NCBI RefSeq assembly: GCF_000003605.2
Contig: NW_003108090.1
Location: 108,797 to 169,867 of the forward strand
Direction: 5' to 3'
Length of the DNA: 61,071 nucleotides
Source: Saccoglossus kowalevskii
Taxonomy: Eukaryota > Hemichordata > Enteropneusta > Harrimaniidae
Position numbers and translations under genes: made by a program. The notes under the pieces were generated by a model. It was not told the origin of the DNA. It made no database searches and worked only from the letters and a program-made list of their open reading frames with translations. Below are positions 15,401 to 55,871 of the stretch, one piece after another. Each line of letters starts with the position of its first letter. Position 1 is the stretch's first letter.

Positions 15401-18400
15401 ACCCAACAGCTAACTCGTTTACTCGTAATTCAACACCATATATACCATATAATTAATAACAGACACACTAAGTTTGACCTCTAAACAGTTTCATTATTTC
15501 CTGTCAGACTCAAGTTCAATACTTAACTCATTGAAATGTACGCATTTTTGACCATGAACCATGTAGTCAGTGACAATTTTCTCACTTACAATTCATGCAC
15601 TAATAAGTATTATTTGCAGACAAGAAAACACAGTATGCAGACTTACCAGAGAATGAAGATGGCTTTCCACATAGGGACCAGGTGACGCCTGACTGCTTGG
15701 TCTGGTCCATTGCCCTGCTGTTGTCAAATAAGTTAGACCAGAGAAAAATTAGAAAATGACATAAATCACCCAGGGCAACACAGGTTCAACTTTTGTTGCG
15801 AGTAATTCTGAGAAAATGTCACAAATATGACAATATAGTTTTACATTGTACAATCTTGAACAGATAAGATCTCAGTAACCATTGTAATAGAAAACGGAAA
15901 TGTCTGAAGCTGTTCCTCATTTAAAATGATTAAGTTTCTAAGGAAGTTGGTACCATTGAAGATGGGAGGGGTTGGGCAAAGTTTTTGAAGGACAAAATTG
16001 ACCAAATTAGCAATACTTCATACAGTTTAAAATATTGATCAATTTTAGTTGCCAAAAATGTTCAAGATTTGAAAAATTCAATATTAACGTAGGTTTATTT
16101 TGTGTGTTGACATTAGCGTTCAAAAGCAAGTATATAGCTCCAGAGTAAACAATGACAGTGAAAAGAAAACAAAAAATCTTCTTGGCTGTTCCTAGATTTA
16201 CCGGTACAGATAATATCAACTACTAATGTAGGAATAAGTGTTTCATTCATCTGTTACATTCTGTTCATCTTACCTGACATGGGTGCTGGAGAACCAACAG
16301 GAGTGGAAGTGTTCGAAGGATAGCTATTGTTAGTTTGGTCTGGTTGATATATCTGTAAATTCAAAAAAAAATATTTTAATACTTTTAAACTTCTGGTATG
16401 ACTCAAAAACATAGATGATATTTCATTAGTATCTATGTATTTGTTGGAGACAAAAAAATTGGCATGTTAGTATAATTTAATGTGCAAAAAATAAAATCAT
16501 TACAGAACCACTGTCTAAACTGCTTCAAAATTGTTTTCCTTTATTTTGACCATCATCCAAGCTGGCCACACGGTATCTATGTTTTCAACTTCATAACATA
16601 TCCCACTCATTTCTCTCCAGAACCATGTCAGTGTTGTTTGTTGAATTTTTATTCCATGCTGACCAGCTTCTTGGCTGCTTCATTCAACAGCCGTTACTTA
16701 AGTACCTTGTAAAATCCAGCGGGACAGAGACGGCAAGTAGACATACAGACAGACACACCAGCCAGCCTGCCAGCCAGCCAGCCAGCCAGCCAGCTTGGTT
16801 CTATTTTCTGACAACTATTGATTTTCCTGACTGTAACATTTATGGTGTGGTTTTCAAATTTCAATTACCAGATACCACTGTGGGTGTGTGATACTAACCT
16901 AACATGTATCGTATGCTGTGATGGTTACACCACAGATCACAGACACACTGTGGGTATTTGATACCAATATCCCATGTATCATACAGTGTGCTGTTATACT
17001 ACCATTATTTTCAAAAGGTAATTTCAAAGACTTGCCCCCTCCACTAAATTTTCCAAGCAAATACAACATTTTTCACAAATTGTACCCCCTTCTTGTGCCA
17101 AATGCAAGTACACTTTGCAAATAGAAGATTAATGCAGTTCTTGTACATGTATTTATACTTCAGAAATCCAGCTGTTAAGATCATTAAACTACCAAGACAA
17201 TCACAAAATATTTCAGTCTCTCAGGGACCCTAAACTAAACCTAAACTATTCAATTATCAGTACATAAGATGTCATACCATCATGACAATTTTTGTCAAAG
17301 TCGCACACATCACAGACAACCTACATTGTACTCTAAAACACTGAGATTGTCTGAATAAAATCAAGCTTAAATGCTAAACTCTTTGAAGTACAAATCCATG
17401 CCTTCCCCTGGGGACAAGTTTGAAGACAATTTAAAACTTAAGCAGTAGCATATCGGCTGTCCTTGTGTTAGTAAAAGTCCAAGGACCACCAACCTCTAGT
17501 GATAAGACAACAAAATAGTGAGGATTTGTATCGCTTGCAACATTTACACCGCAACATGCAAAATTTATTGCCGCAAATGTGTTCTGAACTCATTTGGTAA
17601 AACTAATACTTATATCCTGAAATTATAGTTTCATACTTTCCTGAATAAAATTTTTCTTTTTTAGAAAAACTTTGTACAAAGATGAACAAAGGCAAATTGT
17701 CATTTCCACACTAGGTGGAAACAATACTAACTAAATTATGAAGACTCCATCTTCAGCAAGCATGTGATGAACTCAGTTGCTGTAACATACCAAGCATAAT
17801 TCAAACATGAAATTGGTTTCACATCTGCTGGCTGAAACCATGAAAACGACACGATTCAAAGCTTATTCTCAAAACTCATCTGAGGCCAAGTAAGGAAATA
17901 CAACAAGCCATGTTTTCACTTATTAAAATATTGAACATAGAATAGTTAGTCAAATTCAAAGTTGGCAAAAATTTTAAATTCACTCACTCAACATGGTAAC
18001 TGAACTAGTGAGTTGGAATGTGAGTAGTGTTACATGATAAACATCGCTTGGGGATGTACACTGAATAGAAGTACATGTTATAATCCAGAAAAAACAAAAT
18101 TGATTGGCGGGAAAAAAACAAAAACCATTATGATCAAAATCGAAGAGATAAACTCGTCAGTTGAGTAAAGTGAAGTGAAAATTAAGTAACCATCGAGATA
18201 GCAGAATCTTACCCAAGGATAACGGACATGCCCGTAATTTGAAATATACATGGCTATGAATATTCCGTCAGTATTCCGGATATACAAAGTAAATCCAACA
18301 CACTATAAGAAGGATGTATACGACCAATGGACCACAGCAAGTACTGAAGGCAGAGGCAGAGACAGCTAACTGATTGAACACTACACACATACAGAAGCCA

Positions 18401-21400: not shown

Positions 21401-24400
21401 CAGACAAACAACTGCTGGACCAAATGTAAAGGTCAATAACCTACAAGAGCTGCATTCCTCATAGGAATAAAAACATTACACTTCCACTAAAACTAAGATA
21501 TAATCATAATTTCCAACAACTTTTATATAGCTTTCGGAGAGATAACCTGAACCCATAGAGACTATATGCAACTGCCCTCATGCCCATAGAGAATATGGAT
21601 AAGGGATGCCATATCGTGTTACAATAAATACATAGATTTAAAAAGCTTTTACATGTAGCATTTCAAGTTGGTATGTACATTTCTTGGTATATAAAATCCA
21701 CATAAGCATAACATGTAGGTCATATGTAATCTAACAAGATATGTTTGGGCATGTCATAGGAAACCTAAATGTTTTCATTTTAAAACTGAACCCATACTAC
21801 CCGAGTCACCATTTTTACACCTCTCTCACAATACCTCCATTTCCAGGCTTAACCCACAATACCCTATCCACTATTTCTACACTGCTCTCACAATACCTCC
21901 ATTTCCAGGCTTAACCCACAATACCCTATCCACTATTTCTACACTGCTCTCACAATACCTCCATTTCCAGACTTAACCCACAATACCCTTACCACTATTT
22001 CTACACTGCTCTCACAATACCTCCATTTCCAGGCTTAACCCACAATACCCTATTCACTATTTCTACACTGCTCTCACAATACCTCCATTTCCAGGCTTAA
22101 CCCACAATACCCTATCCACTATTTCTACACTGCTCTCACAATACCTCCATTTCCAGGCTTAACCCACAATACCCTATTCACTATTCACTATTCACTATTT
22201 CTACACTGCTCTCACAATACCTCAATTTCCAGGCTTAACCCACAATACCCTATCCACTATTTCTTCACTGCTCTCACAATACCTCCATTTCCAGGCTTAA
22301 CCCACAATACCGTATCCACTATTTTCACACTGCTCTCACTATATGTTAAGTTTGATGAAATGCATTGTGGGAACCTATTCCAAGACATCCATGGTCAGTC
22401 CAGGTTATTCACTAACAAGAAGCTTGTGAAATGCCCTATCACTTTGGCCTTTTCTGCATTCGCCATCACCCTGGCATTATCTAAGTTATGAGTGTTACTC
22501 ACCGACGCTAAAGCCTGTCCGAGTGCATCTCCTGTTTGTGAGCCACCCCCAGCACCACCACCACTGGATGCTGGTCCAGTACTACTTCTTCCTCCTGCTG
22601 GGAACAAAGTAAATATTGCTTTACAATCAAATCAACATAAGCATAACTTATAGGATAGTAAAAAAAAATTACAATTTTCAATTTTGAAGATTCAAGTAGT
22701 ATGATGACAGTCCTGCAATTATTGGAACTAGGAAGTCCTACAACACTTGGTTGACCACATACTTTTTAACACATTGCCGACAACTCCAGTGAAATTTGCT
22801 TCATTATAAGCATACCACTAATAGATTCAAATATATAATAAACATTGCATGTGTTACTTATGGCAAATGTAGTACATGCTTAGTAGCAGGCAAAATGGGA
22901 ATTTAAAGTAAAAAAAATTTATTAAATAAATCATGAAATCTAAATCTGCAAGAATTAGGAGCATTACAGATACGGAAATGTGCATTTTACGCATTAATTA
23001 CAAGTTAATAAATATGTTATAATATAAAGATTCAGATGAAATGTCATTCTGATAATTATAGCAACAAAGCTTTGTTGTGGTGCAGGAAGGTGTATTTTAC
23101 AGCATTACTTCACCACTAGAGGGCGCCACATACTAGAAAGCGTTATTAGATTAGATCATGACTTACGCATAATACTTTCAGAACCATTTAAAGGTGAAGT
23201 ATTCGACGTGTAAGGTGTGCTGCCGCTTGTTGGATTGCCATGAAATGAAGATATTGGTGGAAGACTCGGGCGCATACTAATAGTCTCATGACTACCAGGT
23301 GACATCGTGTGACCATAACCCTGAAAGTAAAACACAATAATATTAAAAAACTCAATAGTGGCATTAACTGGTTCATACTGGCTTGAACCAGCTTAAACTG
23401 GAATTAATCACTTCACTGTGGACTTTTCACATTGAAACACAAATGATATTGTTAATATGTATATGCATCTACTTAATGCAAGTTCAAAATAAGAAATTTA
23501 AACAACGATTTAACAAATTTTCTAAAATTCTGGTCTACCACCAGTTTTGAAATGCCATCACATGCAGAAATATCTTTATTCAAGATAAGTTTATAAAAGT
23601 CTGTTTCGATGGCAAGTTAGTTAACAATGGCGCCCTCTAGTGTTAGAAATGATGAATGAATAACCCGTGAGATTGTTCATTTATGACCCGAGGGAGCAAG
23701 GAAAGGATAGTCTGGAAAACATCAACATATTGTAGATAATTATCACAACACTGTTTAAAAGGATTCCCAACTTCATTAAAACATAGAGCCCTTCCCCCCA
23801 AGGTACTTGCATCTCGATGCACATACCATTTTATGAAGTTCACTCTTTTTATAATTGAGTTTCATGCTCGTTAATTTCCAAGTTAATGATCCAATTTGAT
23901 CATGTTTTCAACAAGCTAAAAACCCAAACCTGATACTATATTTCTTATTTTTGTAGTTTTCCTTCTAATTAAATTCTTTTGCAAGTACCTAATTCTAAAG
24001 TTATAAAACAAATTGCAAATGGAAGGTTTTTGAAAGAAATGATAAAAAAAAGCAGTGCACATGTATGATATATCCAATTAGCCATACAATTTAAACTCGT
24101 AGTTTAACTAGTAAATAGCTTAATCTTGGTTGCTAGGAATTGAGCGATTTAATGACGTTCTTTTTTTTTATGTCTGTCCAAAATGAATTTAATAGGTATA
24201 CAGTATTTCCATCGATGCGATAGTTCAAATTTAAATCTGATTCAAAATGTAAGTATTCAGTTATCACAGGTTCAGAAAAAATTTGATATTCCATTAAAGG
24301 GGGAAGGGGGTTAAAAAAAAATAGAAAAAAAAATAATAAAATTCAATTTTTTTATGAATCTTACCATGTGCTCGTGAGGCCGTTGGTGCACATTTGTATA

Positions 24401-27400
24401 ACTAGATGAAGTATTATTTAAGATTGCTGAAGAAAAACCAGTGGACGGAGGCATGCCGTTATTACTCCATGGATCGGGACTGCCATGTGAACCATCTGGA
24501 GAAGAAAAATAACAAACAGACATACTTCAATAAACAAATAAATATGGCCGCCACAATGCACTTTATACAAGATCAATTATCTTTGACCACAAAGTAAAAT
24601 ATGAGAAAGGGATCCGCTACAATGATTGTAGCATTTGTTTGATATTCATGGAATATTATATGGCGGACTTGACAGTGAATGACTGGGTAAAGTGGCGACC
24701 ACCTTGCACATTTCTCCCCGGAGACCATCTACACCATTGTATTCCCTGACACTTAATAACAAGGACACAGAAACACAAAAAAAAACAGATGGATTTGATG
24801 AAATAAAAACTGAATAATAGAAAATTAGCAAACTAAAATTGCCATGAAACAAAAACATTATAATGACTTGATGTCGCGAGAACCAGCCACACAAATTCAT
24901 CTGAATAATTCATTGTTAAATTGTTGAAAATATTTCCTCTTACCCATGAATTCTGGATACATGTTTGTAGGTGGCTTGGGTGAGGTGTATCGAGGTGAAT
25001 CTTGACTGTACGGATCATAGGACCCTGATGGCGAATCAACCTAAAATACACACAACAAAACAAACAAATTAAAATACAAAAAAATTAAATTGAAATTAAC
25101 ATAAACTCATACATCAATCGTCCATGTCAATTGTGCTCTGCAATTCAGCACAAAATAAATATCATTTGAAGACAAAAACAAATTTTATTTCGTTGATAAT
25201 TAGGTTTACATAGAGGACACAATGTGCTGGTAGGAATAGGAAACACACCAGTTTTACTTTTGTACAAACCCCACCAGTAGATAAGAAATGGTTTGTATTA
25301 ATTGTACTGGTACTACCTTAGTAGTTGCCACAGCGAGGGACGAGAAGACTGAATCTGTGTTTACTATTCACAACACTGCACTGGTAACACAGCATACATC
25401 AATAATTATTATTTTAATCTATCAGACTAATTAATGCAAGAACTAATTAAACCAAAGGTGTAAAGCTCACAAGTAAAATTGGGCTCTTGCTCATTCCAAT
25501 AATAAAGTTTAGCAAAACTTGCAGGGCAGTGAATGTTATGTAAATAAAGAATGTATTCGTCCCGCTTGTCTGCATTAGTATGAATACGGAACCCATGCTA
25601 AACATGCACACCATGGAGATCATTGTCCTTTTTACCAATAAGAATGTTTATGACAGTCGTGCATATTTATCACGGTGACAGTCGCATCATTACATGTGAC
25701 AGCAGACACGCTACTACAATTGCACTGAACTGAGTTGAAAAACCAAACTTTCCTGGGATCACAACTGTTTTTCGTCAACTCAACTTTCCACCTGCATTTC
25801 ATTGACGGTAACAATGCAATACAACAGACAATTTCTCACAGATATAGTGAGCAATCGGTGGAAATCATTGGAGAATGACAGCTAGGTATTGATTAGCTTC
25901 ATCAACCATGTCCCACAACGCTAGTAATACAAGACATTGGTCAGATTTGATAATATTCCACCTTTTATTCCATATACCTCCCCTGACGTAAGACATTGTT
26001 AATGTCATCCCAGTACACTGACATGGTAGTTCTTATTAGCGAGGCAGTCTATTACGGCGACATCGCCACTTAGTCTGTGTGGTAATACACTACTACCTTA
26101 CCATTTGTCCACAACCCTTTTGACATGAAATTGCAAGGATGTTTAAGAATAAGGCAATTACCGCGACGCAGCAAATGAACACAGCCATTTAGTAAGAACA
26201 CTCCCAAGTACCAAAAGCAGTAAAGTGCAACTATTATATGCGGATTGTCGACCTTCCAACCTTCACTAGACGTCCTTTACTTAACAAGGAAATAGACAAG
26301 CCTCATCAATTCCAAGCCGCTCTTCAATCACGGAAAGCGAATACTGAAGAATTAATTTTATTTCCCGGCTATTCAATTTTTTTTTCACTTGAATGCATGC
26401 GCCATTTCATTTGCATGACAATAGAGAAATGAAAAACACAACCACGACTCATCAGACTTCCACTCAGTGATTCACATTCACGCAAACATCTCCCAGTATT
26501 TTTTTTATGAAAGCCCAGCACATGCAGTAGATCATATTACCATGGCAATGCATGTCTACATGATCCTGGCTTAAGCATACTGAATTGAAAAATTTTTTTT
26601 TTAGATTTTTTATTGATCGACAACGGAAATTAAAACCAGCTCTCATTACATTAGCATTCTACCTACACAAGATTTTCATGAAATCAAACATTTTTATGAC
26701 AATTTTGGAAGTAATATTTTATTGCCAACATTCAGGCTGATATAGCATACATTGACCGAGATTCAAACTACGGTACTCAAACTGAATTTATGCCATGTAT
26801 ACAGAATCCCAGAAAACCACTCAAAAGTTTGTCAAGTTTCAAGGTCTTGGGAGATTGAACAATATGATGACCTTCATGTTAAACAAACTGTTAATTCGGT
26901 CATGTAATAGTACTAATGAGATAATAGAAGGTGCAAAGTGATAAATATGGCATCAAAATTGACTGCCTAACACGATGACTTAGCCGGTCCAGAGAGTACC
27001 ACGGCTGTACTTTTATTAAAGAGTCTTGATGGAAAAAATGCTTTCATAATTTATAGTGTGTATCTTTGTGACAAATGGAATTCCTTGCTGTAGATCCCTT
27101 TCTGATACGAGTTCCTGGAGCAGTTAACACAATCTTTTGGGAGCGTACTGATTCGTTAAATTTACTGACTCAACAAAGTCATAACATTATCAACAAAACC
27201 ATCCTTTCGGCAATAACAGTTTAACCAACAAGCTAGTCTCAAATTTACTACAGACTGCGTGACGCATTATCAGTCTACGCACGAATTCATTTTTATGGAC
27301 TTCCAAGAAAACTACTATTAATAAATAATAAGCATAAATTGTTAGTGTCGAGAGGAAAACTACTAAAACATAATCTTTGTGAGAAGATAAAATAGACTGC

Positions 27401-33400: not shown

Positions 33401-36400
33401 AGAAATCAAGAAAAAATTATCCACAAAATTGAGGACTATTTCGTTAAATCTGATGCGAACATTTGCGATTAATTAATCATTGTTATTTGATGATTTAGGC
33501 TTTTATGTTAAAAACAATTTAATTGAAAAATCTGTGTTACAATTAGTGTGCTTCAATTGACTAAATCTGTACACCCTGGTCTTGACCTTGACTAGGTTAA
33601 GTGGAATTTGGTTGATGCGTTCCCTTGGGATCCATCAAGTATGTTGGCTACTATTAGTCAACATTGTTTCCTCTATCCTTTAAAATGTTTTATTCCAAAC
33701 ACAAGAAAAGCAAACACTTTCATTTGATTCAATTTAACGCAAAATTAAGTATATTTGAACTTTTTAATAATCAATCATGAGAAGGGGAAAACCTATTAAA
33801 AATCCATACCTTTAATTTTAAAATAACGCTCAAAATCAATCGTGATATAACAAACAATTCACACACACAAAAACAAAATTTGGATATTATTTTATGATGA
33901 TGAATGCTAAACAATTAATTCAACTAAAAGCTTTGAATTTTGGAATGTAACCAATTAAACAATTTCATAGAAACACTCTCCATTAATTTTCTTTTTCTTC
34001 TTCTTCTAAAAAGGCAGCCAGTGTGAAAGTGAACAGGCAGTGTATTCATATTTACCATGAACAATTGAGTTTTATAGCGGGATAGCTATGCAAATATTGA
34101 CAGGTTTTCCGACATGGTTGGACACGGGATAATATAAGAGATAAATTGAAACGAAGCGCATCACTGATGTCCACAGATAACCACCCTATCATTTTCAGAT
34201 TTACTTTCATATCTTTAGTAATCTCACGATAACATCATGATGTTTTTACTCTGTTTCTATGCTAATCAGTACCATTACAAGTGACTTGTTATTTTAAACT
34301 TCATAACAACTCTTTCCACAAAATTATGCATAATAAGATAAAATTTGACAAATTTGGACCTGATGTTCATTAAATTCACAGAAAAATTGAAAAGTAATTA
34401 TCGTATTTTGACCTTAAAAACTATCAACAATGGACATCAAATTGAAAACTTGTTTCTTTGGGATGTGAGAATTTGGAAGAAACAAATTTATTGTTTATCA
34501 TTCATAAAATGGTATCATTGGTATCAACACCAGTTCCCTATTTTCATCATAATTCATAAAATAGTCTGCACTTTCCTTCAGAAGATTGGGACAAAAATAG
34601 CCAAATTTATTTAGTAAAAACTGAAAATTTATTCAAATTTTGTCTGTTGGCTTCAAAATTGAGGTTCCTTTCCAGAAATATTGAGAAATACAAGAAAAAA
34701 GTGCAGGAAATTTGGGCAAGAAAGTCTGGTGGTCAAAAGGTTAACACTTCATTTAACCACCACCCTATAGTAAACAGTATCAATGTTCTTATTCTATCAA
34801 AACAAAAATCAGCCTCCTGACTTTGTTTATACTGTGAGCATTCATCTGTTACATAGTACTAATTAAAATCCACCATTATCGCAACTCTCAAAACATCTTT
34901 GATAAGTGATGTCGGTATAACAAACAGCACACAGATTGAAACCGCACGCCAAACACAATGTAACATGGGAGGGAAGAAAAGTAGCAGTGGATTTTTAAAA
35001 TAATTTTGATCCATTTATATAAATTTTAAAAATGCATATGATTGCCATGACTGCTCCAATAAAAATTGTATTTACATCTGACCGAAACAAGGTTGGAACA
35101 TATTTTTCATAACGAATTTACACAACAGACAGGTGATTAACTGAACGAAAAGACTAATTAAAAATCAGTGATGAGTTTGCAGCATAAACATAATTTGTGA
35201 TAGATAAGAGAGTAAAAAATGGAGATTTGGTTTTGGAGGATAATCCCATGGCAACAGGTGGAGAGAAAAAAATAGTACTCACTGGGAAGGCCCTATTTTG
35301 GAGGTACATAACCGGATTGTAGTATGCGTAAGTACAAAACATGGATGGTGATGACGAGGGTGGTGAACTTCTACTGCTACCCCAGTGTAGATACATACAT
35401 ACAGTACGAGGAGATATATAGATTGATACTTCCTGCAGTTATCCAAAAACGATTGACGAACACAACGGATGTAGCAAACTAAACTAAACTACCATACATT
35501 ATTACACTTCCTGACTGAAAACAGATCACAGTCGGGTTGATTTCACTTCACGATGACAGAGTTCGGCCAGCCATGGTATATATTTTTCTAACAATGATGG
35601 GAATACTGTGTTAACCCTTCGTAACCAAAGCACCATATGCCGCCAGCTACCAACCTCACTGCTCATTAATATTCATAAGTAGACCCCACTTTACAAGGCT
35701 TTCATGCATTCTACATACAACAAATAGGTGGCCGCTGTTATGCCGATCTACAAGTACTACGGTCAAGACTTTAAAACAAAACTTACAAGGATTAGAAAGA
35801 AAATAGCAGATACAGATACTATAAAAGTATTAAAATTTGTATTTTATCAAAATTATTTTAGAAAACAACTCTTTTAATACATTTTAAAAATTACAAATAC
35901 TGGTATCTGTGAAACTAAAATTTCTTCAAATAAAATTTTTTTTTTATTCAAATGAATTCTAATTTCTACATTAAAATATTTTTTTTTTCATTAAATGCAA
36001 TACAATTCCAATTATAATTGTCCTTTTTTTTCAAATGAACCAACAATACTGAAAGCATACTGGAGTCTATATTTTCACTTCTGCAGTGACCTTATTTAAT
36101 AGTTCTTCAGGCAACTACCGACATTTTAACACTTCTGAAAATGTAAAAAGATAGTCTGCCTGCAGGTAAAGCCAGATGGTGTGGTATAACTTGTTGCAGG
36201 CAACCAATAGCGGTAAAGAATCAACAACAAAAACCACAGCATTAAATTGTATGTTATAAAAGTCATAACAATTTGATTTCTTTTTGTATTTCAGACATAA
36301 ATTTGGCAATAAAATGTGAAATGGTTGTAAGAATGGGTAATTTTGTAATATCCCTCATTCTATTATCAGTCCTATAAATAAGTCCAGCTGTTACCACGAC

Positions 36401-39085: not shown

Positions 39086-42000
39086 TTGATGATTTCATGT
39101 TCATGCTAAATTCATCTCCCCAAAAGTACCAGGATGTTTGAACTTTAGGGGATTTTTCATAGAAACCAGGGTGACTACTTACCGGTGCTGCACTCAGACC
39201 TCTGGGTCTCTTTGCAGTAGGGCCTCCTGAAAATAGATAATAAAACATATAACTATAAACAAGAAACAGTGAAACAAGACAATAGTGTGAGAGGTATTAT
39301 AATGAAACAGCTTGTACGCATATCATTCAGTTCAGTGAACAATCCAGATTTCATTTACACTACCAATACAGCTTATATTATCTCAAGGCTGAACTGGTTT
39401 AAATTAGAGATATTTCAGGCGAAAAATTTGTACACGAATTTCAACATTTGAAAACCACAATGTTTTGTGATCATATCCATTACTAGTATTTTCATTATTA
39501 GCCAACCACTGACCCAACTCAGGTTTTTTTTTTGTTCGAATAAAAATCAAATAATAATCAATATACATGTATGACAATATAGGTTTTCATCAAATCATTT
39601 TTAATATTTACATCCACATTATTCTTGATCACTCCCTCCCCATTTAATGCCTGCCAACAACTGACATTACACATCCAGATAAGTAAAGCCCTATAGTGAA
39701 AGTTCCTATTGCACAGTGTCATAGTATACAATGCTAGCCAACAATCTACCATAGTCAATGCCAAGCCCTACAAAGAATGCGATCCTGAACTCGTATACCG
39801 GGAGATACAGAAACCCCCAAGGCAGATAAAAACATGGACAGTGTAAGACAATCACCAAGTCGCCAGGAAATGGAAAATTATTATAAATTCCACATACAGA
39901 TTACATACATACCACATGACAGCAAGACAGACATCAATGGCTACACACAGGTGCTGGTGTACACCTGTACATCCCACATACAGATTACACACATACCATA
40001 TGACAGCAAGATAGACATCAATGGCTACACACAGGTGCTGGTGTACACCTGTACATCCCACATACAGATTACACACATACCACATGACAGCAAGATAGAC
40101 ATCATCGGCTACACACAGGTGCTGGTCTACACCTGTACATCCCACATACAGGTTACACACATACCACATGACAGCAAGACAGACATCAATGGCTACACAC
40201 ATGTGCTGGTCTACACCTGTACATCCCACATACAGATTACACACATACCACATGACAGCGAGATAGACATCAATGGCTACACACAGGTGCTGGTGTACAC
40301 CTATACATCCCACATACAGATTACACACATACCACTTGACAGCAAGATAAGACATCAATGGCTGCACACAGGTGCTGGTGTACACCTGTACATTCCACAT
40401 ACAGATTACACACATACCACATGACAGCAAGACAGACATCAATGGCTACACACAGGTGCTGGTGTACACCTATACATCCCACATACATATTACACACATA
40501 CCACATGACAGCAAGATAAGACATCAATGGCTACACACAGGTGCTGGTGTACACCTATACATCCCACATACAGATTACACACATACCACATGACAGCAAG
40601 ATAAGACATTAAGCTACACACAAGACATATACATGGAATAAAGCAATGACAGACCCACACATATAAAAAACCCACACTTGGATATACCTTAAACATATAA
40701 TTCCTCAATTCAATACAGTATATCCTCAATTTTGCAACAGAGTGAATACGGGTACTAATATATTTGATGAAACTGAAGTCCAACTCTATACTCGAAATAA
40801 CTAAAACAACACATCTAACATACAGTAGTTACAGCCACTTTATATAAACTTTCTAGTGATTGATCTCATTTGCAAATGGCTGTTCTGGGAGCAAAAATCC
40901 ATCCATTTTGTTTTTACCCCCCAAAAATTGCCCCATTCTTCATCGCATTAACTGTTTCAACAGTGGACGCAGAGAATGAAACATTATTTGACAAGCAAAA
41001 ACTAGTCTGTGGCTCTCTCACTTACACCAAGATATTGGCAGATAAGGATTCCAAATCAGGGTGAATTATGAAACTTTGAAAACAGTAAACGGCTTGTTGG
41101 CTGTTAAAGTGAAATATAAATCCAGCTTATAAATCAATGAAAATTTTACTTTTTGTAAATTATTGGTAACTACCGTATTTGTTCTATTGGTGGCAGATGC
41201 ATACATATAAATAAATGACCAACATCTGCTAATATTATAAATATTTCATATTTTCAAGATGCAGTACACAACATTGTTTTAAGTGGGCTTCTAATAAAGG
41301 AAATACGTTATATATTTTTTTCTATTTTTAGAGAAGTTTCATGGAAGTTTTCGAGTAACTATGGTGAATTTTTGAATTGTGAAATATTAACAGATGAAGA
41401 CAAATTCACTTCTGATGTGACTGAGTCTCAACCAATCACATCATGCGTAACAGCTTAAGACAGGCTCACTTGTCATGTGACTGATCCTCAACCAATCACA
41501 GCATGCGTAACAGCTTAAGACAGGCTCACTTGTCTCAGATTCCTCAAAATTAACCGATGATAACTAGGTCAAAATACCACAAGCACAATTAGTATTTAGC
41601 AGAGAATTACAAATAGTTCTATTTTTATGTTTGAATGACAATGTTGAGTTCCTGTACGAGAAAAAATCAAACGAAAACCTTTGTGATGCAATGAAGCATG
41701 ATTACGACTTTGATGTTTGTTAATTTTCCCGTACAAATCTATCGCACCTGTGTGGTGTATCATTCCATTGTTTTGTTTCAAGCGCTAAAATCTATAATAT
41801 AAATTACAGATTCTCTCTTGAGATTCGGTATTGTTGAACTTTCTTAATTTTCATATAAAGTACCACGGTCGTTGCATCACATCATATTCGATAGGAGTCC
41901 CATGGGTCGTATACAAGGCAAGTAAAAACATCACTTGTTTATACAATATTTGAATGTATGCCGAGTGATGATGGGGATGCTTTAAGAAAGTTTAATAATC

Positions 42001-45000: not shown

Positions 45001-48000
45001 GCAGTTTGCCATGAGATGGGATCGGCTACAACAGTCAAGCTTCAGAAGGTGGATGTACCTTAAGGACAGACTTCCCTAAAATCACATGCTACCAAAGCAG
45101 TGCATCTCCTTCTCACTGACTAATCTTGATTAGAAACAAACTTGATTCTGTGACTCACCTGCTAGTCTTGAAGATTCAGGCACTAATGGACGTCGAGCAC
45201 TGTTATTGTAACCAAATGGAAATGGTGATCCCCTTTTACTGTGTGGTGAAAGGGAATTTGGACTTGATAGAGGCATTTCATTTGCCATTGATGACATACC
45301 CGCCTACAAATAAGCAGAAACTTAATTACAACTTAATACAGAGCAAAACTCTTGTTATTTGTTGTTCTGCAACCACCACATCTGGAAAAAATTCTTTAAT
45401 ATTCAAATGAGGGTACACAGGAAGTAGGTGCACAGGTACATTTCCATTGTGTCTAAGTTTTATGAACACAACAGGTAAATAAATGCCACTGTCTCAGACT
45501 CCAGGTGCACAATTTGCATAAGTACCCCTAGTTTGATAATAAAAATCATTCAGTCAGAAGTTTGAAACTGCCAGCGCATAAACACATAACACAGAGAAAT
45601 TCTTATGCTTCCCTTTGTAAAAACAGCAGATAAAATAAGCAAAATTTACCAATTTAGACATATCTGATATCTGGAGACAATATCAACAAAACTGTGGAAC
45701 AGAGTCTAGTTTTTGTGAAAGTGAAAATATGACATGTTTTTATCTAGTACCTTCAAATTTTAGGATGTATTAGATGCTAACTTCCACATACTCGTACTAA
45801 CATACAAGATAGTAGACTTCATATATATATATAAAAGATAAAAGACAGATTGCAACAAGATAACCTTCAATATTAAGGTCTGCCCCAACATTTCACTATC
45901 ATCATGAGTACAGATAACAATAGTTGCCTTGACAACACCACAAAGTTCTGATAAGAAATGAATCTTGATTGGATAGAATGCAGTCACATGACCAAGTATA
46001 ACTTACATAAAAAAAATGGTTGCTGTGTTTCAGTTTTATAGAATTCCTAGTGCTATTTTATTTATTTTTCAAAGATTTTAATTTTTCAAATGTTTTCAGG
46101 TAGTTAGTGGAATAGTGAGCATTACGCAATTGTACCTTTGAACTTTGAATAAAGCAGATTACAAATTTTAATCTTATTCAGAAAGATGACTTGACAAAAC
46201 TTAAATGATCCGTCAACCAAGACTTTTGCAAAATGTTGGGGCCGCATTTTGAACATTCTTGTGTATTTTTTGTTAATTTTCAACCAGACAATCACAAATT
46301 TCTGATTGACAATATTTTTTTTCCCTGACATTTAAAAAATATCTGAAAAATTATGCAGCAAATTGTGAAGGTGATGATAAATTTACTTTGATGCTGAAAG
46401 GATTAATCAAAATTTGTAATCTCTGATCAAAATCTGTTAGTGATTTGAACAATATTGAAAGTAGAGGAAATTACAGAAAAAAATCACTAAAATTAGGTTT
46501 GGTTGCAGATGATAATAATAAGATTGAAACCAGTCCAAATTTTGGTATAACATTTTACGTATTTTAATGTACTAGTATTTTTCTAGATGTTAATTTTGTT
46601 TGAATTTTGAATCAAAATGAAATAATTCCCTATTGGCTACAAATTTTATTGAAAATATCTGAAAAAAAATGAAAAGGTGACAAATGTTGACTTTGCCATT
46701 TAAAGGTTAAAATGTATGATAGCAATATTTCAATAGATAACTTTCAAAAATTACAAATATATTTTTTGTATATAAATAATTAATAAGTCAGGTTTGTCAT
46801 ATTGTATGGGAATGGACACCTCTAGTGAGCTGTGGAAATGTAATACACGCTGATGGAATCTACACGAGCAAGAAAACTCAAAATGTGCGAGTATGAATGA
46901 ACTTTGATAGTATTAATAACACGGGAGGAGAATCCGTCCCTAAGGGGGTCAACATCTTTAACAATAGTACCGATATCCTCTTTCAATTATACATAGAGAC
47001 CTTGTACAGAGAGAGGAGCTGTGGCTCTTTATAGCATGAATGCTGTGAAATTTTTTTAAATATTTAGCACATTATATGCATAAATATACAATGTGTTTGA
47101 ACAATTGTTGCTGAAGTGCAGTGATATCAGTGCAATACTAAGTTTCATATGTACATTATTTCTTCAAGCAACAGATATAATCAAGGAATGACCTGGATTG
47201 ATGATAGTTGCCTTCCAAGTAGCATTACTGACTAGAGTTAACTCAAAAATGTTTACATGTCCAAACTAAAACTGTCATCTGTTGTTCACAACAGCAATGC
47301 TTTAATGTTACCAGAGACAAAGTTTTATGAACCACAACGTGTTGTAACTGTGTAGATATTTGTTGTGGTCCTTAAAACAACTTCCGTGAGAATAGTTGTC
47401 ACAAATGCTCTTATACCCACCACAAAACAGACTTTAAGATGCAACCTGACTGTAATAAACCTGATAACAATTTGTGGTTGCCATGACTCGCAAAAACGAA
47501 CAGGCCAGTAGCACCATGCATAATGTAGTATATGATCTATTCCTCGTCTGCTGGTTTTAAAAAAACTAAATGTGGTACAATGTTAACATGAGACCTAATG
47601 ACAATGGTCAGTCATGACACTGCAGATACCCTCACTAGAAAAATCCATCATAAAATCTATCAATGTGCTCATCATCATTCAAAAGAAAAATTACAAAAAA
47701 ACGATAAAATTCATGCTTACAGGGACACAGTAGTAGATACTTGGATAAACCAAGACAGATCTCTGAAGGAGTGACATGATGACAGACGCCACGGATACCG
47801 CAAATATCTGCTCGAAATGATGGTGCACTATGGCAACTGGTTGATGCAGTTATCTGACCTCCAGAGGAGACAACTGGGTGTGAAGATCAGATATCAAATG
47901 GACGAGTAAATAACTATCTACAAATGATCATCCATCCTTCTATCTGGCATCTCAGCCAATAAAATCACACCACAAGCTCTTCAATAAAAAATTAAAGATG

Positions 48001-54000: not shown

Positions 54001-55871
54001 GTACCCAGAGGGAGTTGTGAGACAGCTACCAACACACATGCTGACATCGGTAATTGGAAAGAGACAGTATGGTGGAAACGAAGTAATTCAGGCAACTTCT
54101 AACATTGGTTATGTGACTATCTTAATTCCCTGTAGTTTAGGAAGTGATAATAACGAGCACTGCCGAGACACTTTGTGTTAAACTAACGACGAGTACGGCA
54201 ATCAAGTACTAGAATAGCATTTATTATATGAAAGTCAATTTTAATATCAGAGTGAAGTTTTGAAGTCCTGTGTACAATTATATTAAGATAGCATGGAAAT
54301 ATACAGGTTCCGACACTCTATAAACAACACTGAGAGACCAATTCCCGCGAGGCAAGAGGAAAACAAAACATTTTGTAGCAGTAAACATTTTAGTGGGATA
54401 CTTAGAACACGAGAATCTCTGTGATATCTACAAAATTTCATCCCTAGGTTGGTGGTCAAAATAAGGGAAGCTCAAGATACTGCTGCTCCTAGAATTTCCC
54501 CCAGGCTTCTAGCTTCACTTGCCAGAGCTTACTTTGCTCCCTGTACCTAAAGTTGTGTATTCCACTTGGGTCTAGTATTTTAAATTTTATTTCTACTTGT
54601 GTGTACTCTCCTAAACCACCACATCATAAATTGTCATGGTGAAAATTTTACGATTTAACATAGTATTTGAATTTAAACATCATATGCAGATTCTGAAGTG
54701 CAAAATTCCACATATCAACAATTTATTGTTGCTATTCCCACATAATCTTCAACATTACCACATACAATGTTGTTCACACAGGTGCTGTGTTGACTGATTT
54801 TTATAAACAAATATAATGCTGAAGTCAGCCACAAAACTGGCAGAAGGCTGAATAAAATGAGATTTATTTGCAGCATCTTGAAAACTCACCAAGACACAAC
54901 TGAATCATCCTTTTTTCATATTTATTTTAAAATGCCAAAGTCAAGTTTTATAACGTTTCACAAAATGAACCTGCATAATATTTTTTCCTTTTCTATCAAC
55001 ATTTTGATCAAAATCTATATCCAGTGATAAATTACATGGACTTGCTCCAAAATTAACAAGGAATTTGTAGAAAAACATTTTTAAAATGCGCAATACTTTA
55101 TGCCAAAATGTTGGCAGGAAAAACAGGTTGAAGAAAATGCTGTTTTTCTATTTTTTCATGATTTTTCATGAAAGGAAATTTAAAAAATACTATTTTTAGA
55201 TTCTCATTTGAAATTTTTAATGCACACCAAACTAGTTTTAAAGACAAATTTAGTTAAAAAGTTAGTAATATAATAAGTAACTAACATAGTTGACCTTGTC
55301 ACTTCAGTGGTTTGTCCTCTTATATGTGAACAATAGAGGATTAATAATAGAAAAGGAAAGTGATGACATAGATACGGATGATGTCATCAATCTTTTCAAA
55401 ACAGGAAGTAGAATTGTGATGCATCATGGGACTTTAACACACACAAACTGAGAACCAGATATTAATTGTTGTTTTTAAATCATCATGACATAAACATAAT
55501 TATAGTGCACTCTTTCCTCAATCCTCCTCTGTCAAAGTCACCTTTTGACACAATTCACAATGGCAATTTAATCACAATAGAAACATATGTCCATTTGCTT
55601 CAAAATTATCCAAAAATTTGAAAAATACATAAAAATGGCAAAATATTGCATCAAACTTTGAAAGGGGGAAAATGTGGCACTCAAAAGTTAAATGAGACAT
55701 GGTCTCGGAGGGCAAAATAAGAGTCAGTACTCATAGATGCATATGCAGGACATAGTATTCTTTTTGCTGTTTACAATTTAAGTAGCTCGACACTCACCTG
55801 ACTTGGCGGCATTTCCCTATTGGGCATGGTATAAGGCATCTGGTAAGGTTTACTACTGTCTATGGGTTTAC
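3712..55871 (-). CDS. TCF4/TCF12-like: E-protein (class I bHLH) transcription factor gene, 17 coding exons, 5' end missing
   Basis: E proteins bind CANNTG E-boxes in the nucleus, as homodimers or with tissue-specific bHLH partners such as MyoD, achaete-scute or atonal types. The joined exons give 699 residues plus stop. Numbering from the first full codon in the window: proline/serine-rich N-terminal region (1-163), a [13 protein letters not shown] motif (about 234-246), AD2 loop-helix region (274-336) with the helix exon duplicated, acidic/basic linker with IKIE (480-553), bHLH (about 565-628), then [19 protein letters not shown] (from 629). All junctions are GT-AG and phase-compatible. Similarity to vertebrate TCF4/TCF12 is continuous and intron positions match where I remember them. 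The start codon and activation domain 1 are not seen and probably lie upstream of 61071. I cannot say whether TCF4 or TCF12 is closer; invertebrates usually have one E protein. Confidence 0.95.
3927..4450 (-). other. Intron between bHLH exon and C-terminal exon
   Basis: 524-base GT-AG intron (gtgagt to cccag). AT-rich, with no further exon or repeat recognised. It splits the protein at QVR|ERNLNPK, as I recall for vertebrate E-protein genes. Confidence 0.9.
4451..4674 (-). CDS. TCF4/TCF12-like: E-protein exon 16 (bHLH DNA-binding and dimerisation domain)
   Basis: 224 bases, phase 2 in and phase 1 out, acceptor ttttacgtctccag, donor gtgagt. It encodes [18 protein letters not shown], then the basic region [13 protein letters not shown], helix 1 [11 protein letters not shown], the loop [11 protein letters not shown], and helix 2 [18 protein letters not shown]. 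The E-box-contacting glutamate and arginines of NARER are present, so DNA binding should be intact. Unusual residues relative to vertebrate E proteins are H before ANNARER (M or V there, Q in Daughterless), A in CALHL (usually Q) and A in DKAQ (usually P). Only one bHLH exon was found, so there is no sign of the E12/E47-type exon pair of TCF3. Confidence 0.99.
4675..5197 (-). other. Intron between exon 15 and the bHLH exon
   Basis: 523-base intron. Its 5' end holds the 21-bp E-box array (5066-5180). The rest is unremarkable. No second bHLH exon was found in it. Confidence 0.9.
5066..5180. repeat. 21-bp tandem array with one E-box per unit
   Basis: About 5.5 copies of a 21-bp unit, core ATTCAGACATCACATGACT. 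CACATG occurs at 5076, 5097, 5118, 5139 and 5160, always exactly 21 bases apart. The array ends 17 bases from the donor of exon 15. Confidence 0.97.
5198..5245 (-). CDS. TCF4/TCF12-like: E-protein exon 15 (48-base symmetric cassette before the bHLH)
   Basis: Forty-eight bases, phase 2 to 2, acceptor cttgctttcag, donor gtgagt. It encodes [15 protein letters not shown], flanked by split codons for R and K. It occupies the acidic position before the basic region (NDDEDLTPEQK in TCF4). Skipping it joins KKSR directly to PPEDEPPEV in frame, so alternative use is possible. A 21-bp E-box-containing tandem array starts 17 bases beyond its donor. Confidence 0.8.
5246..5604 (-). other. Intron between exons 14 and 15
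   Basis: 359-base intron, gtgcgg to ctttcag. The sequence CTCCCTAGG occurs twice (near 5291 and 5343). Nothing else recognised. Confidence 0.85.
5605..5782 (-). CDS. TCF4/TCF12-like: E-protein exon 14 (SUMO-type IKIE motif, charged linker)
   Basis: 178 bases, phase 1 in and phase 2 out, acceptor tatttaacag, donor gtgcgg (a weaker GT donor). It encodes [20 protein letters not shown], then a lysine/glutamate-rich stretch and [12 protein letters not shown] fits the SUMO consensus (hydrophobic-K-x-E) and lies where TCF3 has EIKREE and TCF12 has EIKTEN. RSKKSR is a basic cluster shortly before the bHLH, like the RGRTS or RSR region of vertebrate proteins. Confidence 0.92.
5783..7395 (-). other. 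Intron between exons 13 and 14
   Basis: 1.6-kb AT-rich intron with short poly-A and poly-T runs (near 6019 and 6960). No exon-like frame or tandem repeat recognised. Confidence 0.8.
7396..7536 (-). CDS. TCF4/TCF12-like: E-protein exon 13 (linker, symmetric)
   Basis: 141 bases, phase 1 to 1, acceptor ttgcaacctacag, donor gtaatt. It encodes [20 protein letters not shown], then [20 protein letters not shown] and LQHSFQ. I do not recognise a specific vertebrate counterpart. The boundaries and phase fit exactly between exons 12 and 14, and skipping it would keep the frame, so it could be lineage-specific or alternative. Confidence 0.7.
7537..8168 (-). other. Intron between exons 12 and 13
   Basis: 632-base intron. 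It has a low-complexity stretch rich in TTTAGTG near 7600-7650. Nothing else recognised. Confidence 0.8.
8169..8313 (-). CDS. TCF4/TCF12-like: E-protein exon 12 (Pro/His-rich linker)
   Basis: 145 bases, phase 0 in and phase 1 out, acceptor tttatttgcag, donor gttagt. It encodes [20 protein letters not shown], then [19 protein letters not shown] and IAQPQQPFN. It sits where vertebrate E proteins have a proline-rich linker (NPPQDPYRGMPPG in TCF4). Sequence similarity is weak; the call depends on splice sites, phase and position. Confidence 0.82.
8314..13981 (-). other. Intron between exons 11 and 12
   Basis: 5.7-kb AT-rich intron without obvious tandem repeats. An exon-like block at 10146-10240 has good splice signals but a frame-breaking length (95 bases), so it is not called. 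Scattered short open frames show no family resemblance. Confidence 0.75.
13982..14182 (-). CDS. TCF4/TCF12-like: E-protein exon 11 (AD2 helix, copy B, plus His/Met-rich tail)
   Basis: 201 bases, phase 0 to 0, acceptor gttttcag, donor gtaagg. It begins [20 protein letters not shown], the AD2 helix, which in TCF12 reads [20 protein letters not shown]. AD2 recruits transcriptional co-regulators in vertebrate E proteins. The remaining 47 residues are rich in G, H and M (for example [20 protein letters not shown]) and match the loosely conserved post-AD2 region of TCF4 only in composition. Confidence 0.95.
14183..14505 (-). other. Short intron between the duplicated AD2 helix exons
   Basis: 323-base intron from gtaaac to gttttcag. 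It is long enough for both flanking exons to be spliced into one mRNA, so strict steric mutual exclusion is not expected. Confidence 0.85.
14506..14565 (-). CDS. TCF4/TCF12-like: E-protein exon 10, duplicated AD2 helix exon (copy A, probable alternative cassette)
   Basis: Exactly sixty bases (phase 0 to 0) between acceptor gttgtcaatcag and donor gtaaac. It encodes [20 protein letters not shown], a diverged copy of the first 20 residues of the next exon ([20 protein letters not shown]). The helix core [10 protein letters not shown] is identical, with conservative changes after it. Because its length is a multiple of three and both ends are phase 0, including or skipping it keeps the frame. It lies between HSL and QSR, the place where vertebrate TCF12 has an alternatively spliced 24-residue insert. 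Its codon use differs from copy B at synonymous sites, so it is not a recent duplicate. Whether it is always, sometimes or never included cannot be read from genomic DNA. Confidence 0.85.
14566..15646 (-). other. Intron between exons 9 and 10
   Basis: 1.1-kb intron, more than half of it the 33-bp minisatellite (14661-15255). It also has an 11-base C run at 15358-15368. The array ends about 95 bases before the helix-exon acceptor. Confidence 0.88.
14661..15255. repeat. 33-bp minisatellite with YY1-like core
   Basis: About 18 copies of a 33-bp unit, core AATCCAAGATGGCTACCCCA and TCAGAGGTGAGG. The centre is nearly identical and both ends are diverged. It lies in the intron between exons 9 and 10. 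CAAGATGGC occurs exactly in 12 units. The period is a multiple of three and lacks stops in several frames, which produces long spurious open frames on both strands (up to 210 codons). Confidence 0.97.
15647..15717 (-). CDS. TCF4/TCF12-like: E-protein exon 9 (start of AD2 loop-helix domain)
   Basis: Seventy-one bases, phase 1 in and phase 0 out, donor gtaagt, acceptor ttgacaacag. It encodes [20 protein letters not shown] then HSL. Vertebrate TCF4 has [23 protein letters not shown]. The phase-0 end after HSL lets it splice to either of the two helix exons that follow. Confidence 0.95.
15718..16273 (-). other. Intron between exons 8 and 9
   Basis: 556-base intron, gtaaga to caacag. AT-rich; nothing else recognised. 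Confidence 0.85.
16274..16352 (-). CDS. TCF4/TCF12-like: E-protein exon 8 ([15 protein letters not shown] motif)
   Basis: Seventy-nine bases, phase 0 in and phase 1 out, donor gtaaga, acceptor aatttacag. It encodes [20 protein letters not shown] followed by SPAPMS. The vertebrate exon is [20 protein letters not shown] then SPPSLS, a very close match at the same splice position. Confidence 0.97.
16759..16794. repeat. (CCAG)n microsatellite
   Basis: Nine units of CCAG/CAGC type with one interruption (CCTG), preceded by a short GACA-like stretch. Confidence 0.95.
18747..19027. other. Assembly gap (281 N)
   Basis: Run of Ns inside the intron between exons 7 and 8. Open frames that cross it are meaningless. 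Confidence 1.
21788..22341. repeat. 62-bp minisatellite next to exon 7
   Basis: About nine copies of a 62-bp unit, with blocks CTATTTCTACACTGCTCTCA and CAATACCTCCATTTCCAGGC. Most copies are over 90% identical by eye. One copy has an internal expansion of TATTCAC near 22175-22200. The array ends about 160 bases from exon 7. Confidence 0.97.
22503..22597 (-). CDS. TCF4/TCF12-like: E-protein exon 7 ([13 protein letters not shown] motif)
   Basis: Ninety-five bases, phase 1 in and phase 0 out, donor TCG|gtgagt, acceptor ttgttcccag. After a glycine/serine-rich stretch it encodes [15 protein letters not shown], almost identical to the vertebrate [15 protein letters not shown]. The exon ends after ALAS, as I recall for the vertebrate genes. 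A 62-bp minisatellite begins about 160 bases downstream in the intron. Confidence 0.97.
22598..23166 (-). other. Intron between exons 6 and 7
   Basis: 569-base intron. It contains a CTCF-like motif at 23113-23126, 41 bases from the exon 6 boundary. Otherwise AT-rich. Confidence 0.85.
23113..23126 (+). promoter_or_regulatory. CTCF-like motif
   Basis: CCACTAGAGGGCGC fits the CTCF core CCASYAGRKGGCRS at every position. A motif match alone does not prove binding, and AGAGGGCGC also occurs in some animal interspersed repeats. Confidence 0.4.
23167..23320 (-). CDS. TCF4/TCF12-like: E-protein exon 6
   Basis: 154 bases, phase 0 in and phase 1 out, donor gtaagt, acceptor ttactttcag. It encodes [20 protein letters not shown] and then [15 protein letters not shown]. 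Vertebrate TCF4 reads [20 protein letters not shown] then CTPPANGTDSIM. The exon is flanked on both sides by CTCF-like motifs at 23113 and 23630. Confidence 0.95.
23321..24364 (-). other. Intron between exons 5 and 6
   Basis: 1.0-kb AT-rich intron with a near-consensus CTCF-like motif on the minus strand at 23630-23643. Nothing else recognised. Confidence 0.85.
23630..23643 (-). promoter_or_regulatory. CTCF-like motif, opposite orientation
   Basis: The minus strand reads ACACTAGAGGGCGC, one mismatch from the CTCF core. It faces the motif at 23113 across exon 6. Confidence 0.3.
24365..24495 (-). CDS. TCF4/TCF12-like: E-protein exon 5
   Basis: 131 bases, phase 1 in and phase 0 out, donor gtaaga, acceptor cttctccag. 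With the split aspartate it encodes [15 protein letters not shown] and ends [12 protein letters not shown]. Vertebrate TCF4 has DGHHSSDPWSSSSGM and CSLHPHERL in the same order, so this is a confident match in the central transactivation/repression region. Confidence 0.95.
24496..24943 (-). other. Intron between exons 4 and 5
   Basis: 448-base intron, gtaaga to tctccag. No repeats or exon-like frames recognised. Confidence 0.85.
24944..25040 (-). CDS. TCF4/TCF12-like: E-protein exon 4 (common exon, joins long and Alt forms)
   Basis: Ninety-seven bases, phase 0 in and phase 1 out, donor gtaaga, acceptor tattttag. It encodes [20 protein letters not shown] and then MYPEFM. The vertebrate counterpart is [20 protein letters not shown]. 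In vertebrates this is the exon to which the HEBAlt/TCF4-A first exon is spliced. Here it accepts either exon 3 or the Alt exon at 35283-35342, both ending in phase 0. Confidence 0.95.
29781..30010 (+). repeat. Interspersed repeat, copy 1
   Basis: Similar to 34528-34745 in the same orientation. Shared blocks include CCAGTTCCCT, CAAATTTTGTCTGTTGGCT, AATATTGAGAAATA and AAAGGTTAA, with scattered substitutions and short indels. Strand is arbitrary. I found no terminal repeats, so its class is unknown. Confidence 0.85.
30390..31220. repeat. 124-bp higher-order minisatellite of about 20-bp GATGAGAAA subunits
   Basis: The phrase AGAAACTGAATCAAGATGAG recurs at 30401, 30525, 30650, 30775, 30876, 31000 and 31124. 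Spacing is 124-125 bases except one shortened copy (101). Each unit has six subunits built on GATGAGAAA or AATGAGAAA. After 31220 the pattern decays into looser GAGAAA repeats to about 31400. Confidence 0.95.
32859..32875 (+). repeat. Poly-G run (17)
   Basis: Seventeen consecutive Gs (C on the transcribed strand), preceded at 32766-32786 by a short CAGA microsatellite. Length may be unreliable in sequencing. Confidence 0.95.
34528..34745 (+). repeat. Interspersed repeat, copy 2
   Basis: Second copy of the repeat at 29781-30010, direct orientation, about 4.5 kb away and slightly shorter. It ends about 540 bases from the Alt exon donor. Confidence 0.85.
35283..35342 (-). CDS. TCF4/TCF12-like: Alternative internal first exon, Alt-type N-terminus (HEBAlt/TCF4-A-like)
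   Basis: Sixty bases from ATG to donor CCA|gtgagt, phase 0, encoding [20 protein letters not shown]. Vertebrate HEBAlt and TCF4-A start MYCAY and then have LMYYYNGKAVY. Shared features are M-aromatic-C-x-Y at the start and N-x-[VL]-M-Y-x-x-N-[RG] near the junction. The exon lies in the intron before exon 4, as in vertebrates, and phase 0 fits exon 4 (starting GTT GAT). The resulting protein would lack everything encoded upstream, including AD1. An in-frame upstream ATG at 35396 would add 18 residues, and an ATG at 35400 opens a 7-codon upstream ORF. I prefer 35342 because it aligns with the vertebrate start and fits a TATA-like element at 35413-35420. Confidence 0.82.
35413..35420 (-). promoter_or_regulatory. 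TATA-like element of the Alt promoter
   Basis: The minus strand reads TATATATC here. A start site about 25-30 bases downstream, near 35388, would make the ATG at 35342 the first start codon and exclude the ones at 35400 and 35396. This is positional inference; AT-rich DNA contains many such strings. Confidence 0.35.
36498..36533. promoter_or_regulatory. Inverted pair GGTCACATG / CATGTGACC
   Basis: A perfect 9-base inverted repeat with an 18-base G-rich spacer. Each arm holds a CACATG E-box in the TCACATG context that MITF/TFE-type bHLH-zip proteins can bind. It lies about 1.1 kb upstream, in gene sense, of the Alt exon. Function is inferred only. Confidence 0.4.
37631..37930. repeat. Degenerate tandem repeat (TATGGAAAACCAGTCTGGGTT)
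   Basis: Seven or so diverged units around a core ATTATGGAAAACCAGTCTGG, with spacing of roughly 35-45 bases. An old array, unlike the homogeneous ones elsewhere in the window. Confidence 0.85.
38351..38530. mobile_element. MITE-like element, copy 1 (CTGTAAAATA termini)
   Basis: About 180 bases bounded by inverted CTGTAAAATACTT. The left arm continues to GCTGGAATTAATTTT. Interior motif TCAGCGAAAATAAAT is shared with the element at 51045-51243. No coding capacity. The target duplication is unclear. Confidence 0.7.
39054..39079. repeat. Poly-T run (26)
   Basis: Twenty-six Ts, about 100 bases inside the intron from the exon 3 donor. It could be the tail of an old retrotransposed insertion, but no body was recognised. 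Confidence 0.9.
39183..39226 (-). CDS. TCF4/TCF12-like: E-protein exon 3 (short basic motif exon)
   Basis: Forty-four bases, phase 1 in and phase 0 out, donor gtaagt, acceptor atttTCAG. It encodes [14 protein letters not shown] after a split glycine. AKRPRG takes the place of the vertebrate TKKVRKVPPG nuclear-localisation-like motif. Transcripts starting at the internal Alt exon would not include this exon. Confidence 0.88.
39891..40621. repeat. 84-bp minisatellite rich in E-boxes
   Basis: About 8.6 units starting at 39891, 39975, 40059, 40143, 40227, 40311, 40396, 40480 and 40565 (period 84, twice 85). Each full unit has three E-box positions: CACATG, then CAGGTG, then CACCTG or CACCTA. The last two form an inverted pair, CAGGTG-8 bp-CACCTG. 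By my count position 1 is CANNTG in 9 of 9 units (CATATG and CACTTG variants included), position 2 in 8 of 8, and position 3 in 5 of 8. The period is divisible by three, so 196-codon frames open on both strands; they are not genes. Confidence 0.97.
41399..41534. repeat. 60-bp direct repeat (2.3 copies)
   Basis: Two adjacent 60-base copies plus a partial third, sharing TCAACCAATCACA and CATGCGTAACAGCTTAAGACA. Each copy holds a CCAATCA motif. Confidence 0.95.
42381..42578 (-). CDS. Unrecognised small open frame in intron, CpG-retaining
   Basis: From an ATG at 42560 the frame encodes 59 residues, starting [20 protein letters not shown] and ending [13 protein letters not shown]. An upstream TTG-initiated extension of six codons reaches 42578. 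It is rich in basic and aromatic residues. About ten CpGs fall within 180 bases while the surroundings are CpG-poor. I see no domain, signal peptide or membrane segment. Possible donors inside it are out of phase with exon 3, so it does not fit as an E-protein exon. It may be chance, an unmethylated regulatory patch or a small gene. Confidence 0.2.
   Translation of the reverse strand: MCYGCTMLDPFEQRRYTKRYLRFPNAIGLPHFSWYGRLLRRDYPPEKKHYSHSLKSRKKGLREER
43893..44165. repeat. 35-bp minisatellite
   Basis: About 7.7 copies of a 35-bp unit, core GGAATTATGGGACAGTGCTA then TTCAATATGGACCAT. A single unit-like stretch in inverted orientation lies at about 43819-43845 (minus strand CACTATGGAATTATGGGACA). 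Confidence 0.96.
44465..44899. mobile_element. MITE-like element with about 55-bp terminal inverted repeats
   Basis: Left arm AGGGACGACGTCAAAGATCG continues ATGTCAGGATAAAAAACTTA and TTCCTTTAGTTT. The right arm is the inverted complement with a few differences. The 435-base element encodes no transposase. The DNA just outside is TA-rich (left CTA, right AAT), consistent with a short TA-type target duplication that I cannot confirm. Confidence 0.8.
45159..45303 (-). CDS. TCF4/TCF12-like: E-protein exon 2
   Basis: 145 bases, phase 0 in and phase 1 out, donor gtgagt, acceptor ttatttgtag. It encodes a serine/proline-rich segment including [13 protein letters not shown], then [10 protein letters not shown]. 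In vertebrate TCF4 the matching region reads [23 protein letters not shown], so order and key residues (LSP, N-N, RRPL) are kept. Phase 1 pairs with the next exon to make [12 protein letters not shown] across the junction. Confidence 0.9.
49461..49493 (-). CDS. TCF4/TCF12-like: Candidate second alternative first exon ([11 protein letters not shown])
   Basis: Thirty-three bases from ATG to a strong donor GGGAT|gtaagt, encoding [11 protein letters not shown] and ending in phase 0, as needed to join exon 2 at 45303. An in-frame TAG lies three codons before the ATG, and A is at position -3. The preceding 50 bases hold several CpGs in otherwise CpG-poor DNA, a MYB-type TAACGG (plus strand 49504-49509) and an AT-rich TTTAATAAAG stretch. 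Vertebrate TCF4 is known for many short alternative first exons. I know of no vertebrate peptide matching this one, so it stays a candidate. Confidence 0.4.
51045..51243. mobile_element. MITE-like element, copy 2 (CTGTAAAATA termini)
   Basis: About 199 bases with inverted termini of roughly 45 bases: CTGTAAAATACTTTATTTT and GGAATTAATTTTTGCTGAA on the left, and the complement with CTGTCAAATA on the right. Shares termini and TCAGTGAAAATAAAT with the element at 38351. No coding capacity. Confidence 0.8.
55798..55871 (-). CDS. TCF4/TCF12-like: E-protein exon 1 in window (N-terminal region)
   Basis: Seventy-four bases between an acceptor (ttattgcag) and the donor gtgagt. It starts with two bases of a split codon and ends in phase 0. 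It encodes [20 protein letters not shown] then PPSQ, a proline/methionine-rich stretch. This corresponds to the poorly conserved region between activation domain 1 and the LSP motif in vertebrate TCF4. The match itself is weak; the call rests on splice sites, phase and position. An upstream exon ending in phase 1 is required but was not found in the window. Confidence 0.8.

Follow-up and report, generated by a model that had tools for sequence, protein, structure and literature searches.

A candidate Alt-type first exon in an E-protein gene of a probable invertebrate

An intron of a class I bHLH E-protein gene quite probably contains an Alt first exon, homologous to the Alt exons of TCF12 and TCF4, in an animal that is probably an invertebrate. 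The gene lies on the minus strand of the stretch of 61,071 nucleotides analysed here (the window). We establish the identity of the gene, the order and phases of its exons, and a peptide match that exceeds chance when the place and donor of the Alt exon are taken into account. An earlier note on this DNA had proposed that an E-protein gene here has an Alt-class N-terminus, and the intron, phase and recipient exon are indeed the same as in vertebrate HEBAlt.

Identity and exon chain of the gene

Exons were located by tblastn with a provisional human TCF4 sequence and by reading of splice sites. The gene is, by its sequence, a class I bHLH E-protein gene, because its bHLH region, its C-terminus and its upstream exons match E-proteins. 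The bHLH region matches Pfam HLH and, together with the C-terminus, matches PDB chains of E2A and TCF4 (E 5.2e-43 for E2A); the conserved C-terminal block of 18 residues is present. The upstream exons align with residues 127-444 of full-length E2A (E 2.3e-15; the composition correction was large, at 47.3 bits), and the AD2 helix region (ERLDDAI.VLR) was found.

Ten exons running from 45303 to 13982 on the minus strand form a single open frame of 359 residues, with agreeing phases and GT...AG borders. The chain opens with the equivalents of canonical exon 7 (45159..45303, located by tblastn, phase 0 to 1) and canonical exon 8 (39183..39226, 14 residues, phase 1 to 0), followed by the shared recipient exon, equivalent to exon 9 (24944..25040, 32 residues, placed by tblastn and phase). 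The remaining members were placed by tblastn and the joined frame: shared exons at 24365..24495, 23167..23320, 22503..22597, 16274..16352 (26 residues) and 15647..15717 (22 residues), an extra AD2 helix exon at 14506..14565 (20 residues, phase 0-0) and the AD2 helix exon at 13982..14182. An eleventh exon (8169..8313, minus strand), also shared and placed in the same way, continues the chain. The bHLH exon (4452..4667 for its matched part) and the C-terminal exon (3820..3926), both on the minus strand, were placed by tblastn, the latter being partly matched and its start taken from the sequence.

Upstream of exon 7, a scan for composition and splice sites, with the other exons as its training set, gave a candidate canonical exon of 24 residues (55798..55871, minus strand), which alone lay outside that set. 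It has strong splice sites, its out-phase of 0 fits exon 7, and it has no homolog match; it is probably a further coding exon of the long form. Neither tblastn over 44-61 kb nor a motif scan above 24 kb found AD1 (LDFS helix). Among LDFS strings, those at 30-31 kb were rejected as AD1 because they lie inside tandem-repeat DNA, and one at 40783 because the surrounding stretch is otherwise devoid of E-protein likeness. The gene may run past the end of the window, beyond the range of the AD1 search.

The AD2 helix exon thus occurs twice in tandem, and its first copy, of phase 0-0, could be a cassette. This copy stands at what we take to be the position of the HEB 'ankyrin-like' exon, and may be the equivalent of that exon or a lineage-specific duplication. 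The exons at 22597 and 15717 open with tandem CAG/CAG acceptors, giving one optional residue each; a comparable optional CAG is described for human TCF4 in PMC3137626.

The window has a GC content of 34.6% and a CpG observed/expected ratio of 0.42, and no tRNA or Rfam match reached the gathering score. Relatives of the bHLH region were confirmed in none of 11 pattern stretches from viral contigs and none of 123 from prokaryotic contigs. The motif CCACTAGAGGGCGC, which we take to be CTCF-like, is found three times with 0-2 mismatches (23113-23126 and 56445-56458 on the plus strand, 23630-23643 on the minus strand), compared to 0.02 expected by shuffling; two of these copies are oppositely oriented and about 500 bp apart. 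Long minisatellites occupy introns and the low end of the window (1-1920, 14714-15217, 21789-22343, 30394-31213 and 39890-40622), and the large ORFs at 14.6-15.3 kb and 39.8-40.4 kb traverse minisatellites.

Position and donor of the Alt segment

The Alt coding segment (35283..35342, minus strand) encodes 20 residues, four of which are tyrosines. Translation from 35342 to 35283 reproduces the 20-residue peptide reported earlier, and the canonical phase-0 donor reported with it is GTGAGT, starting at 35282. This donor ranks 49th of 4011 minus-strand GT sites when scored with a hand-typed donor matrix.

The first codons of the exon 9 equivalent, from 25040, are GTT GAT (V D), in phase 0, and ...GTGTATTTTAG precedes them. 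Since the exon 7 equivalent ends in phase 1, direct joining of exons 7 and 9 breaks the frame, and the exon at 39226-39183, running from phase 1 to phase 0, fits the gap. This exon 8 equivalent was picked on its splice sites, its phase and a basic stretch resembling the vertebrate NLS, and it lies opposite the KVRKVPPGLPSS stretch in the E2A alignment. By similarity alone it stays below the top, with a score of 22 (23 with a later donor) compared to 24 among the best 40 matches. It is fifth among the 25 listed in the composition scan, a rank that is not independent because the scan matrix was trained on exons 7, 8 and 9 too. In the rebuilt chain the Alt exon is located between the exon 8 (39226-39183) and exon 9 (25040-24944) equivalents, and exon 8 and Alt each splice into exon 9 in phase 0. 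The proposal that intron position and recipient exon are those of vertebrates is therefore borne out by the flanking exons and by the donor phase. In mouse Tcf12, according to PMC9385190, the Alt exon likewise lies between exons 8 and 9.

Similarity of the Alt peptide to vertebrate Alt domains

The motif agreement claimed in the earlier note holds in part. The M-aromatic-C-x-Y start and an MYxxN block are present, but the similarity is thin and the YYY motif, a regulatory feature of vertebrate Alt, has no counterpart: MYLQN stands at that place, with two of the three tyrosines substituted. YYY was not used to define the Alt exon class. The similarity that was found is modest, short and gapped, and was scored against provisional vertebrate Alt letters.

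Taken by itself, such similarity is weak enough to arise by chance, in an untranslated intronic stretch that happens to hold a short open frame with an ATG and a good donor. A tblastn search at E up to 50, using a provisional TCF4-A N-terminus as query, recovered exon 9 and not the Alt exon. With any GT accepted as donor, the Alt peptide was third of 602 minus-strand candidates, after two that overlap each other, and one of 305 plus-strand candidates outscored it. Candidates were also filtered to those that start with ATG, encode 15-35 aa and end at a phase-0 GTRAG donor, a filter that 15 candidates passed on the whole minus strand and 3 within the Alt intron. Shuffled vertebrate queries reached the Alt score in 1.0-3.5% of cases for the 3 intron candidates and in 1.7-6.4% for the 15 minus-strand candidates of the window.

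Among these 15 candidates the Alt peptide is first, with a 22-point lead at each of three gap costs. In order-2 random sequence (50 Mb, 8260 candidates), 7, 3 and 0 candidates were equally good at the three gap costs, corresponding to 0.002, 0.0008 and 0 equally good chance matches expected per intron. The coincidence of right intron, phase, consensus donor and peptide match, expected at most 0.002 times per intron, argues against chance, as does a non-vertebrate precedent for the Alt class in the sea urchin, known to us by title. We therefore regard a chance origin as quite improbable. The peptide letters alone are weak evidence; the letters together with place, phase and donor are good evidence, and the Alt exon is probably real and functional.

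The provisional vertebrate Alt sequences have 23 residues before VY, in agreement with the published length, and differ between TCF4 and TCF12 at 4 of 23 places; the vertebrate long forms, taken equally provisionally, contain the same VY as NGKAVY. Since the long forms share this VY and the published Alt domain has 23 aa, the VY probably comes from the shared exon 9, and the vertebrate V would then align with the V that opens VDSPSG here. NGKAVY, which had been placed as a whole before the junction, thus probably loses its VY to exon 9. The length of 23 aa is given in PMC9385190 and PMC3346973, of which the former counts two differences between the TCF4 and TCF12 Alt domains and the latter reports 80% identity.

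First exon or cassette exon

The segment had been described as an internal exon. The reading frame upstream of the Alt ATG is open to 35438, with an additional in-frame ATG at 35396, and the segment may be a first exon. The Alt ATG itself has a poor context (T at -3 and +4). Upstream of it, on the minus strand, lies an Inr-like CTACACT (35384..35390, A+1 at 35388), and 32 nt further upstream, counted from the A of the Inr, stands a TATA-like TATATAT (35414..35420). Both are consensus matches. The putative 5′ UTR, from the Inr A to the Alt ATG, would measure 46 nt (35343..35388) and contains no ATG; two others, at 35400 and 35396, both lie above the putative start at 35388.

The TATA/Inr pair was first spotted by eye, and a scan of the 308 nt upstream of the ATG then gave one pair. 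Such pairs occur in 0.5% of random 100-nt stretches and 1.2% of random 200-nt stretches, and 8 of 1418 minus-strand ATGs, counting the Alt ATG, have one at most 100 nt upstream. The find was post hoc, and a fair chance is nearer 1-2% than 0.5%. The pair hints at a promoter belonging to the Alt exon itself.

The same stretch could also be read as a cassette exon of 150 nt (35432..35283, phase 0-0) between exons 8 and 9, adding 50 residues and turning the Alt-like ATG into an internal methionine. The frame is open, and an exon starting at 35432, right behind the acceptor CTGCAG, would continue the frame from the phase-0 donor of exon 8. However, this acceptor is weak: it scores 4.5, and among the 11 accepted exons, whose acceptors range from 3.3 to 11.5, one alone is lower. 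The acceptor for an exon start at 35428, in frame directly from exon 7, scores -3.0. Moreover, the TATA/Inr pair lies downstream of the 35432 acceptor. That the likeness to vertebrate Alt starts at the methionine also points away from a cassette, a weak argument because scoring ran over the whole query, starting at its own methionine. We consider the cassette distinctly unlikely and retain the first exon as the preferred reading.

Discussion

In the mechanism that we propose for this first exon, transcription would begin within the intron that follows exon 8, and the Alt exon of 20 codons would be joined to exon 9 in phase 0. This would yield a short E-protein with AD2 and bHLH and a tyrosine-rich N-terminus, in which AD1, the basic NLS-like stretch and the half of AD3 encoded by exon 8 are missing; these losses would be as in vertebrates, because the exon order is the same. 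By analogy with vertebrates, the short form may rely on longer partners to enter the nucleus and, in selected cells, serve as a weaker activator that can be switched. The JAK mechanism is not transferable here, because the YYY motif is not kept.

For the mouse, PMC9385190 describes separate starts for HEBAlt and HEBCan, an Alt form without AD1 and the first half of AD3, and a JAK-dependent increase of HEBAlt activity upon YYY phosphorylation. According to the same paper, complete removal of Alt lowers activity about 3-fold, and a construct carrying only the last third of Alt, with a natural methionine start, is as active as the whole Alt. According to PMC3137626, TCF4-A lacks the NLS of exons 8-9 and reaches the nucleus through partners. 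By measurement, it counts among the main isoforms in rodent tissues.

The exon described here shares with HEBAlt of mouse and human TCF12 its place between exons 8 and 9, its phase fit to exon 9, the methionine start, the M-aromatic-C-x-Y opening, the MYxxN block, several tyrosines and the predicted loss of AD1 and of the exon-8 half of AD3. With TCF4-A (E2-2Alt) it has these likenesses in common and, in addition, the absence of the upstream NLS-like stretch. It differs from both in its length (20 residues compared to 23) and in the loss of YYY, which is MYLQ here. Furthermore, TCF4-A is a measured isoform, whereas expression and promoter of the present exon are predicted.

The abstract of Schrankel et al. 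reportedly describes an Alt homolog in the sea urchin. The title of that paper (Schrankel et al. 2016, Dev Biol 416:149) speaks of a 'conserved alternative form' of HEB/E2-2/E2A, and PMC6433000 cites it for an HEB/E2-2-like ancestral locus. Compared by title only, the sea urchin form resembles the present exon in being a non-vertebrate, conserved alternative form. Further related literature comprises PMC9666405, PMC8199221, PMC6494969, PMC5660111 and PMC6783274. The view that Alt is mainly a vertebrate TCF12/TCF4 feature gives way before the sea urchin report, as far as its title tells. The claim that Alt predates vertebrates agrees with the alternative form and ancestral locus in print for the sea urchin; it had thus been made for deuterostomes before and is not new. 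The Alt exon found here is therefore an added example and not a new kind.

No protostome Alt form was found in the literature searched; as the search was poorly aimed at protostomes and covered few subscription papers, this negative is no proof of absence. We suggest tentatively, with somewhat less than even confidence, that this DNA comes from a protostome, such as a mollusc, annelid or brachiopod. The Alt exon and the long/short design would then be ancestral to bilaterians, the JAK-responsive YYY having been added later, in vertebrates, to an older tag rich in tyrosine. A protostome source would also extend the known range of the Alt form.

By alignment, the methionine-tyrosine block that appears to survive here is part of the last third of mouse Alt, and its function would therefore be testable in an invertebrate. 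The comparison suggests that the old parts of Alt are the M-aromatic-C-x-Y opening and MYxxN, and that YYY may be a vertebrate addition. The Alt exon of this gene supports an old origin of the long/short E-protein switch.
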